Shown here: positions 55,311-59,350 of the stretch, in pieces
Layout of the letters: every line of letters starts with the position of its first letter
Position numbering within the stretch: position 1 is the stretch's first letter
Assembly (NCBI GenBank): GCA_009838075.1
Contig: VXSG01000004.1
Location: 1-64,000 of the forward strand
DNA: 64,000 bases
From: Boseongicola sp. SB0665_bin_10
GTDB lineage: Bacteria; Pseudomonadota; Alphaproteobacteria; Rhodobacterales; Rhodobacteraceae
Direction of reading: 5' to 3'
Notes under the pieces: model-generated
The model's input: the letters and a program-made list of their open reading frames with translations, nothing else
What the model was told of the DNA's origin: nothing
Databases searched by the model: none
Position numbers and translations under genes: made by a program

Positions 55311-55447
55311 CACCATCCAGCCTGATGCGGATTGCCAAGGCTTCGACGCGCCCCGGCGGCAGACGGACGGCTGCCTGGGCCCGTCTTCAAACGGCGACGC
55401 GCTGCACTGCCAGCCGGCACTTCCAGGTCGTTCCGGCATGGCTGCGC

Positions 55448-58183
55448 TCATCGTTCGGTGAGCTTCAGCTCGATCCGCCGGTTCTGCGCCCGGGCTGCGT
55501 CGGTGTCCTCCGGGTTGACCGGCCGGTATTCGCCGAATCCCGCGGCGGCCAGCCGTTCCGGCGGGAAGCCCAGCGTCCCGGTCATGTATTTCACCACCGA
55601 CAGCGCGCGGCCCGCGCTGAGCTCCCAGTTGTCCGCGAACGCGCCCGCCACCACCACCGGCGCGTTGTCGGTGTGCCCGTCGACCCGCAGCACCCAGTCG
55701 AGGTTCGGCGGGATCTCGTCGGCCACCTCCTCGAGGATCCCCGCGACCTCCTCGATCGACGCCTGCCCCTCCGGCAGCAGCGTCGCCGAGCCGCTCTCGA
55801 ACAGCACCTCCGACGGGAACAGGAACCGGTCGCCGACGACCCGCACACCCTCCCGGTCGCCCAGGACCCGCCGCAGCGTGCCGAAGAACTCCGACCGGTA
55901 GGCGGCGAGGTCGACCACCTCCTCGTCCAGCGCCGCCTTCTCGCGCCGCAGCCGCTCCGCCTCCGCCGCCTCCAGCGCCGCGCGCCGCCGCTGCTCCGCC
56001 GCCACGCGGGCCAGCGCCCGGTTCAGCCGGCTCCCCAGCGCGTCGATCCGCACCCGGGACTCCCTGTCCCGCTCCTCGGCGCTGTCCAGGAGCCTCGAGA
56101 GCTCCGCCAGCTGGCCCCGGAGCGCGGCCACCTGCGCGTTCAGCAGCGCCACCTCGCGCTGCGCCCGCGAGGAGATCTCCCGCTCCTCCGCCAGCTGCCG
56201 GCCGGCCGTGTCGAGGAGGGCCTGCCTCCGGTCCCGCTCGTCGATCGCGCCCGCGCGCGCGTCCTCCGCCGCCAGCCGCGCCGCAAGCGCGGCGGCCAGC
56301 TCCTCGCGCAGCCGCGCAGCGTCCGCCTCCGCGTCCGCCTCCGCGTCCCGCAGCGCCGACACCTCCTCCCGGAGCCTGTCGCGGGCCGCCGCCAGCAGCG
56401 CCAGCTCGGCCAACGCGCCGTCCCGGCCGGACTCCGCCTCCTCAAGCAGGCCTTCCGCGCGGCCGAGCCGCGCGAGGGCCTCGTCAAGCCGCGCGTTCAG
56501 CTCCTCCCCGGCCGCGCCGGCCGCCGCCAGCTCGGCCAGCGCGCCGTCCCGGCCGGACTCCGCCTCCTCAAGCAGGCCCTCCGCGAGGACGAGCTTCGCG
56601 ACCACCTCGGCAAGCCGCGCGTTCAGCTCCTCCTCGGCCGCGTTGGCCGCCGCGAGCAGGGCAAGCGTCTCCTCGGCGTCCTTCCGCGCCTCCTCGAGCT
56701 GGAGCGACAGCGCGGTCAGCTCGGCGTTCGAGTTGCGCAGCCTCTCGCGCAGCGCCTCCGCGATCGCCGCCTCCGCGAGCCGCGCCGCCTCCTTCGCGTC
56801 AAGCTCCGCCTGCGCGCTGTCGGCCTGCGCCAGCAGCTCCCTGATGACCGCCGCGTCGGCCTCGGCGCCGCTGCGGGCACTGCCAAGCTCGGCCCGGGCC
56901 TCGGCCAGCGACGCCGCGGCCTCGGCCCCGGCGGCCTCCGAGCGCTCCAGCGCCGCCAGCGCGTCCGCCAGGGACGCGTCGCGCGCCGCAATGTCGGCCA
57001 GGGCACGGGCCAGCAGCGCGGCGGTCTCGGTCTCGGTCACTTCCGACCGCTCAAGCGCCGCGTAGGCTTCCGCCAGGGACACGTCGCGCGCCTCGATGTC
57101 GGCAAGGGCACGGGCCAGCAACGCCGCGGTCTCCGCCTCGGTGGATTCAGACCGCTCGAGGGCGGCGCGGGCTTCCGCAAGGGACGCGTTGCGCGCCTCG
57201 ACGTCAGCCAGGGCGCGGACCAGCAGCGCCGCGGTCTCCGCCTCGGTCATTTCGGACTGCTCAAGCGCCGCCAGGGCTTGCGCAAGGGACACGTCCCGCG
57301 CCTCGATGTCGGCAAGGGCACGAACCAGCAACGCCGCGGTCTCCGCCTCGGTGATTTCCGACTGCTCGAGTGCGGCGCGAGCTTCCGCAAGGGACGCGTC
57401 GCGCTCCTCGAGGTCGGCCAGGGCGCGGGCCAGCAACGCAGCGGTCTCCGCCTCGGAGATTTCCGATCGCCTGAGCGCCGCGAGGGCTTGCGCAAGGGAC
57501 ACGTCGCGCTCCTCGACATCGGCCAGGGCACGGACAAGCAATGCGGCAGTCTCCGCCTCGGAGATTTCAGACTGCTCAAGCGCCGCGAGAGCTTGCGTCA
57601 GGGACGCCTCGCGCGCCGCTACGTCAACCCGTAGCCGAGCCGCAACCGCCTCAAGAGTCCGGCTTTCCTCCAATGCACTGTCACGCTCGATCAGCAATGC
57701 GGCTATCTGCTCCTCAAAACTGGCGATCGTCGCATCCCGATCGCGAAGCGTGCGCGCCTGCACATCGATCTGACCCGTGAGACTCGCGATGAGCGCAGCC
57801 TGCCGGTCGGTCTCGCCCTGCAATCTTGCAATCGCTTCATCCCGCACGAGAAGCGTGTGCGCCTGCGCGTCGATCTGGCCGGTGAGATCGGCGATGAGCG
57901 CGGCCTGCCGCTCGGTCTCGCCTTGCAGCGTGGCAACGCCTTGCCGAAGTTGCGTGGCTTCCTGCTTCGACAGTCCGAGCGCCTCGCTGAGTGCCAGCAC
58001 TTCTGCCGACAGGTCGCCGAGCGCCGACTCCTGTCCCGTAATGGTCTCTCGCAGGACTGCCTGCACGAACATGAAAATCGTGAGCAGGAAAATCAGCACC
58101 AGAAGCAGGGCTGCCATGGCATCCACGAAGCCCGGCCAGATCGAACCGGACACGCGCTGCATCGACCTATGTGTCAGGGCCAT
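55448..58183 (-). CDS. Very long coiled-coil protein with MotB-like anchor and C-terminal OmpA domain
   Basis: A 911-aa protein. Residues about 22-44 form one membrane segment preceded by WPGFVDAM, whose Asp21 is placed like the proton-carrying Asp of MotB/ExbD-type stators. Residues about 45-780 are an almost unbroken Ala/Glu/Leu/Arg coiled coil, with a 35-residue period starting near residue 86 and six clear copies at 194-403. The end (about 780-911) is an OmpA/MotB peptidoglycan-binding domain (VDGHTDNAPVV, WELSAGRALSV, FGEYRPVNPED, RRIELKL). It lies 3 bp after the ExbB-like channel gene, so the two are partners. Such pairs are annotated as biopolymer transporter plus peptidoglycan-binding protein; the output is not known. 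Confidence 0.92.
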   Translation of the reverse strand: MALTHRSMQRVSGSIWPGFVDAMAALLLVLIFLLTIFMFVQAVLRETITGQESALGDLSAEVLALSEALGLSKQEATQLRQGVATLQGETERQAALIADLTGQIDAQAHTLLVRDEAIARLQGETDRQAALIASLTGQIDVQARTLRDRDATIASFEEQIAALLIERDSALEESRTLEAVAARLRVDVAAREASLTQALAALEQSEISEAETAALLVRALADVEERDVSLAQALAALRRSEISEAETAALLARALADLEERDASLAEARAALEQSEITEAETAALLVRALADIEARDVSLAQALAALEQSEMTEAETAALLVRALADVEARNASLAEARAALERSESTEAETAALLARALADIEARDVSLAEAYAALERSEVTETETAALLARALADIAARDASLADALAALERSEAAGAEAAASLAEARAELGSARSGAEADAAVIRELLAQADSAQAELDAKEAARLAEAAIAEALRERLRNSNAELTALSLQLEEARKDAEETLALLAAANAAEEELNARLAEVVAKLVLAEGLLEEAESGRDGALAELAAAGAAGEELNARLDEALARLGRAEGLLEEAESGRDGALAELALLAAARDRLREEVSALRDAEADAEADAARLREELAAALAARLAAEDARAGAIDERDRRQALLDTAGRQLAEEREISSRAQREVALLNAQVAALRGQLAELSRLLDSAEERDRESRVRIDALGSRLNRALARVAAEQRRRAALEAAEAERLRREKAALDEEVVDLAAYRSEFFGTLRRVLGDREGVRVVGDRFLFPSEVLFESGSATLLPEGQASIEEVAGILEEVADEIPPNLDWVLRVDGHTDNAPVVVAGAFADNWELSAGRALSVVKYMTGTLGFPPERLAAAGFGEYRPVNPEDTDAARAQNRRIELKLTER
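56405..56590 (-). repeat. Duplicated segment in the coiled-coil gene
   Basis: A second, separate duplication: AEGLLEEAESGRDGALAEL occurs twice about 40 residues apart, with nearly identical DNA (gcgccgtcccggccggactc in both). It points to recent internal duplication in the distal coil. Confidence 0.75.
56975..57604 (-). repeat. Six tandem 105-bp (35-aa) units in the coiled-coil gene
   Basis: Six head-to-tail copies of a 35-residue unit of the type SLAxALAALEQSEISEAETAALLxRALADxEARDx, residues 194-403, clear at both protein and DNA level. A decayed seventh follows. Units at residues 86-120 and 121-155 (LQGETxRQAALIAxLTGQIDxQA) keep the same 35-residue spacing with different sequence. Confidence 0.92.
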
Positions 58184-58186
58184 GGT

Positions 58187-59350
58187 TCAAGGTCCATCCT
58201 GACCGTGCTGCCCAAGCGCCCGTATCTCCTTCGTCAATTCTGCAAGATCGGCCCTCAGCGCACCCATGCTTTCCTGCCGGCCAGCCGAGACTTCTTCCAG
58301 AATGCGAAGCACCTGAATGTCCATTGACCTCAAGCGCCGGCGGCTTTCCGCGTCAAAGCCACTGGCCCCTTCCCGCACCAGCCCTTCCAGGGCGGCCACA
58401 AGACGGTCCTGAGCCTCGGAATTCCATTCAAGGTCGCGTTCGCCAAGGTTTTCGTTGAGCGCACCTATGGCATCGACGACCCTTTCCAATTGCTTGCTGT
58501 CGGCAACGCGTTGCTCTGTTGTTTCGGCATAGGCCGTCTGCAGCTGATTCATCTGCTCGGCAAGGTGTTCAACCAGTTGCGAAAGCGAGCCCTCTTCGCC
58601 GCCCGCCCCCTCTTCGCCAGCGAATCCGACCCGGGTCATGCTAGAGAGCCACTCCTCAAGTTCTCGAAAGAAGCGGTTCTGGCCGTGACTGGCAAAAAGT
58701 TCCAGGATCCCGACAACGAGCGACCCGGCCAATCCCAAAAGCGAGGACGCAAAGGCGATGCCCATTCCTTCAAGCTGGTCCTCAAGACCGGATATCAGGC
58801 GCTCGAACACCGTGACGCCGCTTTCGCCTTCCGCTGGGGCCAATGCCCGAATCGTGTCCACCACGGCGGGCACAGTGGTGGCGAGACCATAGAATGTGCC
58901 CAGAAGACCCAGAAAAATAAGGAGATTTATGATGTATCGCGTGATGTCGCGAGCTTCGTCAATGCGCGTTGCGACGGAATCCAGGATCGAGCGGGAGGAC
59001 GACGCGCCGATCTGGCTTCCTGCGCTCTTCTTGCGCAGGAGAGCAGCCAACGGAGCCAGCAGCCTCGGTGCCTTGACCAGCTCGTGGCCTGGGCGACCCT
59101 GGGCAAACCCCTCGATCCAGCTGACCGACGACACCAACTGAAAGATCTGCCAGAAGCAGGCCACGACCCCTATGACAAAGACAAGAGCTATGAACGCGTT
59201 GAACCATGGGTTCGCAAGGAAGACGGGAGCGACCCGCGGGAAGGCCAGCACGGCCCCGACGCCGACCAGCGTCAACACCAGGATCATCGTCATGAACTGA
59301 CGATAAGGTTGCGTGAAATCCCACTCAGCCTCGGTGTCCGGCCGGCTCAT
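58187..59350 (-). CDS. MotA/TolQ/ExbB proton channel family protein
   Basis: A 387-aa channel subunit with four hydrophobic segments: MTMILVLTLVGVGAVLAF, FNAFIALVFVIGVVACFW, TRYIINLLIFLGLLGTFYGLA and GIAFASSLLGLAGSLVVGIL. The last two carry the ExbB-type pore features. From about residue 240 it has a long cytoplasmic helical tail (LVEHLAEQMNQLQTAYAETTEQRVADSKQLERVVDAIGAL), longer than TolQ or ExbB and recalling ZorA. The ATG at 59350 gives the expected N terminus; the tracked ORF adds 23 residues. It should form a proton channel with the downstream OmpA-like protein. Confidence 0.92.
   Translation of the reverse strand: MSRPDTEAEWDFTQPYRQFMTMILVLTLVGVGAVLAFPRVAPVFLANPWFNAFIALVFVIGVVACFWQIFQLVSSVSWIEGFAQGRPGHELVKAPRLLAPLAALLRKKSAGSQIGASSSRSILDSVATRIDEARDITRYIINLLIFLGLLGTFYGLATTVPAVVDTIRALAPAEGESGVTVFERLISGLEDQLEGMGIAFASSLLGLAGSLVVGILELFASHGQNRFFRELEEWLSSMTRVGFAGEEGAGGEEGSLSQLVEHLAEQMNQLQTAYAETTEQRVADSKQLERVVDAIGALNENLGERDLEWNSEAQDRLVAALEGLVREGASGFDAESRRRLRSMDIQVLRILEEVSAGRQESMGALRADLAELTKEIRALGQHGQDGP

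Follow-up and report, generated by a model that had tools for sequence, protein, structure and literature searches.

Introduction

In the 5:2 ion-driven motors (MotAB, ExbBD, TolQR, GldLM and ZorAB), the A and B subunits are encoded by adjacent genes. MotB combines a single N-terminal transmembrane (TM) helix, which bears an invariant Asp, with an OmpA anchor, and its plug and linker are short. In Zorya, ZorAB also has an OmpA-type wall anchor; the elongated part is ZorA's cytoplasmic tail, and within a given type the components vary little in size (PMC11890865).

The window analysed here is a 64,000-nucleotide stretch of contig VXSG01000004.1 (Boseongicola sp. SB0665_bin_10, assembly GCA_009838075.1). 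It contains a gene pair that is likewise adjacent, and its B protein resembles MotB in its single N-terminal TM helix with an invariant Asp and its OmpA anchor. Unlike MotB, B proteins of this kind have a coil of 250 to about 2200 residues. The pair shares with ZorAB the OmpA-type wall anchor and gives weak matches to the PADLOC ZorA and ZorB profiles, but here the long part lies on B; unlike in Zorya, B length is labile and the gene is core. From sequence, the pair is best read as a conserved, uncharacterised alphaproteobacterial motor-like membrane complex, a 5:2-type motor or channel. We found no experimental work on the A-B complex in the literature and no assigned function for the NF006542/PRK09039 family to which B belongs, and a literature search with PRK09039 gave nothing on the family.

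Results

A motor-like gene pair whose B subunit carries a long coiled coil

The gene pair and the parts of the B protein are as follows.

58190..59350, minus strand: putative A subunit, a MotA/TolQ/ExbB/ZorA-like membrane protein directly upstream of B, 387 aa from the Met chosen here
55448..58183, minus strand: B subunit, a 911-aa MotB/OmpA-type "peptidoglycan -binding protein" with a TM helix, a ~700-residue coil and an OmpA domain (ORF; NF006542; Pfam OmpA, 6e-15)
58049..58135, minus strand: N-terminal TM helix, residues ~17-45, with invariant Asp21 (WPGFVDA)
57656..57739, minus strand: coil island I1 (SFEEQ...), residues ~149-176, present in 121/128 orthologues
56609..56764, minus strand: coil island I2, residues ~474-525, HMM match in 128/128 orthologues
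55994..56167, minus strand: coil island I3, residues ~673-730, present in 128/128 orthologues
55478..55804, minus strand: OmpA-type peptidoglycan-binding domain, residues 794-902 (Pfam PF00691)

The window protein is a member of NCBIfam NF006542 (603.6 bits; cut-off, 388). The NF006542/PRK09039 model (Rhodobacteraceae form) has 627 positions, whereas the window member has 911 residues and a genus-specific 35-residue array. W16-A22 was invariant in 16 aligned orthologues, and the OmpA domain was closest to MotB and PomB structures (phmmer; best 6ysf, 2e-18). Along coil residues 46-755 the hydrophobic period was 3.50, against 3.49-3.51 across the family, and there was no power at the hendecad period of 3.67. 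A low-confidence AF2 monomer model has an unbroken helix from residue 19 to 204, running from the TM segment into the coil. MotB-type topology and charge suggest that the coil is periplasmic and begins as a continuation of the axle helix.

The A gene adjoined the B gene in 128/128 orthologues, and A-subunit length was nearly constant (5-95%: 385-425 aa), with no A-B length co-variation (rho 0.09). The A sequence scored 13.5 bits against Pfam MotA_ExbB, under the 22.9 cut-off. All 50 listed Foldseek matches of its AF2 model (pLDDT 66) were TolQ, ExbB or ZorA chains, with E from 2.3e-3 and worse and TM-scores to target of about 0.5, while a profile search of the PDB with the A alignment returned designed or kinesin coils only and no motor chain. 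The model matches are suggestive only of a MotA/TolQ/ExbB-type fold. Zorya membership was rejected: A gave at best 33.8 bits over part of the PADLOC ZorA profile and 11.5 against NCBIfam ZorA (cut-off 500), B matches to the ZorB profile were essentially confined to the OmpA end, and the four nearest other genes (XerC-type recombinase, CNNM/CorC, ChaC and DUF2125) included no PADLOC defence match and no effector gene (ZorC/D/E).

An NF006542-type match was found in 150/150 sampled genomes of the family, each of a different genus, and 140/150 were over the cut-off. Named relatives are Rhodobacteraceae, the nearest being metagenome bins filed as Silicimonas and Boseongicola. The TM segment and the OmpA domain lay in one frame at 127/131 loci, the other four being cut by contig or stretch ends.

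Coil register is fixed relative to both ends of the protein

We compared 128 orthologues from 126 genera of one family (125 other genera and three species of the window's genus), placing five anchors in each: the TM Asp (D), coil islands I1-I3 and the SEFFG motif (S). The results showed that all 121 D-to-I1 distances fell in one mod-7 class, with 9 different lengths. The D-to-I2 distance ranged from 111 to 2039 residues, yet 117/128 genes fell in one mod-7 class. It took 42 distinct lengths, 32 of them in the main class, and all 11 exceptional genes were displaced by 3, 4 or 1 and none by 2, 5 or 6. Among phylogenetically independent pairs (n=55), 45 D-to-I2 changes were multiples of 7 (p=6e-29), 9 were ±3/4 and 1 was other. 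At the opposite end, I3 to SEFFG fell in one class in 124/128 genes. The I2-to-I3 segment had two main mod-7 classes, three apart, and its changes (n=54) comprised 14 multiples of 7, 23 of ±3/4 and 17 others.

The island HMMs are themselves heptad-patterned and could mis-match in register. This was guarded against by the I2 score gap (best score at least 29.2 bits in each of the 128; best second match 10.8), by a specific text motif occurring once per protein (69/75 in one mod-7 class) and by non-coil anchors, for which the distance from the Asp to GDRF was significant modulo 7 (p=1e-13) and not modulo 5, 6, 9, 10 or 11. From the TM segment to I2, the median gene had 100% of its 42-residue windows in phase, compared to 55% in shuffles. 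In other alphaproteobacterial families, 27/30 genes fell in two classes 3-4 apart with coils of 161-249 residues, these 30 being the best matches to a short model and uninformative on length range outside the family. Among the family's 23 strongest arrays, 20 had periods that were multiples of 21 bp, and array units across the family included 14, 28, 35, 42, 70, 84, 105 and 112 residues. These results show that the coil lengthens and shortens in-frame by whole heptads, with rare half-heptad (stutter, ±3/4) steps, and that its register is fixed to both the N-terminal TM Asp and the C-terminal OmpA domain.

The longest gene, a 2364-aa orthologue (L226 in G014), has a 113-residue unit in 5.9 copies with 96% matches. 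This unit is not a heptad multiple (113 = 4 × 28 + 1) and the heptad phase drifts steadily along it, reminiscent of the skip residues in myosin rods.

Coil length is almost unconstrained

The distance from the TM Asp to SEFFG was 746 residues in the window, about 107 nm for a straight coil, and 270-2198 residues among the 128 orthologues, about 36-323 nm or about eight-fold (a coiled coil rises about 1 nm per heptad; PMC5082667). Length differed in 61/62 independent pairs. For comparison, SMC barely varied in the same family: across 36 genera its full-length match spanned 1139-1151 aa, a spread of 12 residues in about 1140. These results show that coil length is almost unconstrained. Even the shortest family member's rod is longer than the expected depth of the periplasm. 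Since the rods are far longer than this depth and would have to lie along the periplasm or bend, the distance spanned is probably unimportant.

The coil expands by tandem duplication, and register filters which changes survive. Two B chains, assumed to form a parallel dimer, would make one continuous helical rod from the membrane axle to the wall anchor; indels breaking the knobs-into-holes register would be removed and register-keeping insertions tolerated. The most likely reason would be that the rod must remain torsionally and mechanically continuous, so that torque, tension or an activating signal can travel between motor and wall. This continuity may not be absolute, because I2-I3 tolerates several registers, and the 113-residue non-heptad unit of G014 counts against the explanation.

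As a counterpoint, register conservation could reflect folding stability alone: an out-of-register coil would misfold or be degraded, and the rod would be a passive tether of neutral length, passing neither torque nor signal. The sequence data, on both length freedom and register, are all explained just as well in this way, and loose spacer rods have precedents. A passive tether could, however, tolerate breaks, hinges and unstructured inserts, and almost none occur between the TM segment and I2; moreover, leaving G014 aside, the phase holds to the TM Asp for up to 741 residues, and it is locked to the OmpA end as well. We regard this main rival to the mechanically continuous rod as a serious possibility, if not the one we would expect to hold.

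An old 35-residue tandem array lies within the coil

The initial annotation described a 105-bp tandem array at 56975-57604, which corresponds to residues 194-403 of the 911-aa minus-strand frame, exactly 6 × 35. The array detected by TRF at 56889-57617 had 6.9 copies, 81% matches and 0% indels. Three duplications were located in the coil.

56889..57617, minus strand: tandem array of 105 bp (35 residues), residues 189-431, six exact units and a decayed seventh (TRF, unit alignment)
57733..57927, minus strand: second, separate 105-bp duplication, residues 86-150, 1.9 copies (TRF)
56384..56657, minus strand: 126-bp (42-residue) duplication, residues 510-600, 2.2 copies (TRF)

The six full units (residues 191-400) had 77-91% nucleotide identity to each other, and the decayed seventh had 67-72%. 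Identical codons at lag 35 made up 24.1%, compared to a mean of 9.8% and a maximum of 13.2% in 1000 shuffles preserving heptad composition. The 35-residue repeat signal is therefore not chance and lies far beyond heptad-composition shuffles. Between the six units, dS was 0.43 (about a third of synonymous sites differ) and dN/dS was 0.30, which shows that the units are under purifying selection and indicates that the array is old and constrained as protein. The units upstream, at residues 86-190, had been described as keeping the same 35-residue phase. Of these, only residues 86-150 are repeated: residues ~149-176 are a stretch that nearly all genera conserve and do not form a repeat unit, and where the heptad register is common, a 35-residue phase would be shared by chance in 1 case out of 5. 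The TM-to-I1 distance was 136 residues in the window's genus versus 101 in the nearest other genus. On the plus strand, 55325-57634 holds a 769-codon open frame antisense to the coil with no sign of being a gene; such a frame is expected from the GC-rich heptad codons (GC 0.74 in 56001-58000).

The initial annotation had also raised assembly collapse or expansion. Named relatives of the genus are metagenome bins, and several congener contigs break inside the gene. Against an artefact of draft genomes, in the array or in its copy number, the longest exact repeat within the array is 29 bp and the units differ at 9-23% of sites, so that short reads can resolve them; congener arrays are built of the same 35-residue unit, and single-contig genomes follow the same lengths-by-heptads rule. 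With this divergence the array is not an obvious artefact, and we consider such an origin extremely improbable.

In 24/25 pooled 35-residue units, Glu sat at an a and the following d core position (15 and 18 of the unit), which leaves the hydrophobic core of the array with an acidic gap at regular intervals. If the 35-residue unit itself is kept for any functional reason, this repeated acidic weak point may be it. In the low-confidence AF2 monomer, the array helix is interrupted at 35-residue spacing (205-208, 239-243, 275-278, 310-313 and 380-383), and the breaks fall at most S-E-x-S/T array sites, where both core positions are Glu. Given the Glu pairs in the core and the predicted breaks at them, the array may be a chain of weak points, which counts against a mechanically continuous rod.

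The predicted breaks, and a rod contour of tens to hundreds of nanometres that cannot stand upright in the periplasm, would suit a second rival, in which the coil folds back into an antiparallel bundle or hairpin stack, its reach staying short whatever the contour and each duplication adding a layer. The same model nevertheless keeps helices of 185-202 residues outside the array, the units contain no Pro/Gly turns, and monomer models of coils are unreliable. A bundle would favour one fixed helix length, but units of 28, 35, 42, 84 and 112 residues all occur. We think a folded-back coil unlikely, and prefer the continuous rod.

The coil, from the 35-residue units onward, was also found in four congeners as part of a fusion, preceded by an unrelated domain of ~170 aa that is predicted to be secreted.

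Coil-fusion loci: L258/L081 (G152:C75), L259/L082 (G153:C68), L260 (G156:C33) and L261 (G155:C72)

The L258 and L259 fusions extend through later parts of the coil. The secreted domain had no Pfam match, and the fusion was not found in the window's genome. Its occurrence behind an unrelated domain in four congeners indicates that the coil is a module that moves from one protein to another. The OmpA end also has a second, partial copy elsewhere in the window's genome (L080, G000:C52:40553-40894), with 72% aa identity and an internal deletion. Partial copies of this kind may account for the paired contigs with identical starts at the B gene 3' end in G154, G155 and G156.

Thirty-five residues is a duplication unit and not a ruler

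The array had been judged prone to copy-number change, and this was borne out: congeners carry 6 (window), 8 (G152), at least 9 (G156, contig ending inside) and 11 (G154) units, counts being minima where contigs end inside the gene and the arrays of the genus not being independent of one another. It had further been proposed that the 35-residue period is itself selected, as a ruler set by a fixed superhelical repeat. Six exact units, the second 35-residue duplication upstream and a third in G154 favour this proposal. Lengths are nevertheless not quantised by 35. Within the genus, the I1-to-I2 distance was 325 (window), 360 and 479 residues, I2 to I3 was 199 (window), 241 and 195, and I3 to SEFFG was 86 (window), 93 and 93. 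Segment lengths thus differed by 154, 119, 42, 46, 7 and 4 residues, and coil lengths differing by non-multiples of 35 had been named beforehand as evidence against a ruler.

Across the family, total lengths were quantised modulo 7 (p about 1e-12 to 1e-13), with no significant signal modulo 5. Only 2 of the 45 heptad-multiple changes in tree-independent pairs were multiples of 35, compared to 9 expected, which is below chance. The commonest coil self-lag in the family was 28 residues (37 genes), 35 being best in 9. The 35-residue period is not a superhelical repeat either, since a coiled coil needs 80-120 residues to complete a turn (PMC9389320). Modulo 5 and 35 were tried on total length, segments and independent pairs, and 35 was ruled out as a quantum. 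Myosin-like charge zones of 28/3 residues, prompted by the 28-residue family lag, gave no peak at 9.33. These results show that 35 residues is only the duplication unit caught in the window's genus; a ruler of this length is very improbable.

Discussion

We conclude that the array is probably a lineage-specific tandem expansion in the B coil of a motor-like complex, in which register is kept, length is nearly free and the rod is mechanically continuous. More tentatively, the pair could be a membrane motor present throughout the family, in which the wall-anchored axle extends into a rod that transmits rotation or tension. Such a rod would measure about 320 nm at most and run through the periplasm along the cell surface; phase continuity with the axle would be its only strict rule, and its length would evolve almost freely by heptad-multiple duplication. 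We think this wider proposal rather unlikely as a whole.

The B gene is present in every sampled genus of the family. With more than 120 orthologues and 100 different lengths, it amounts to a replicated natural experiment on the features that a motor-to-wall connector has to keep. It shows how register filters tandem duplication, and it draws attention to a conserved but unstudied complex of motor-like type.

Coils mostly keep their length, which varies 3.6 times less than that of non-coil regions (reviewed in PMC5082667), and synaptonemal coils are depleted of indels (PMC8598163). As in coiled-coil spacers in general (PMC5082667), the coil described here is a rod between two functional ends; unlike in them, it is the labile part. 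The linkers of PadC phytochrome-diguanylate cyclases have natural lengths differing by multiples of seven (54%) or by -4 (38%) (PMC9587094). They obey the same 0 or 4 rule but are short, with few length classes, whereas the coils here reach about 2200 residues. The heptad rule is thus known in kind; we found no description of it extending over hundreds of residues in a B subunit of motor type whose length is nearly free. SMC arms show a periodic length constraint and need continuous heptads, for which force transmission has been proposed, but they have few allowed lengths, about 100 residues apart (PMC5344682); here, any heptad multiple seems to be allowed. Coiled coils are thought of as length-conserved spacers, and this coil presents the opposite case, its length labile and its seven-residue phase locked from the membrane aspartate outward.
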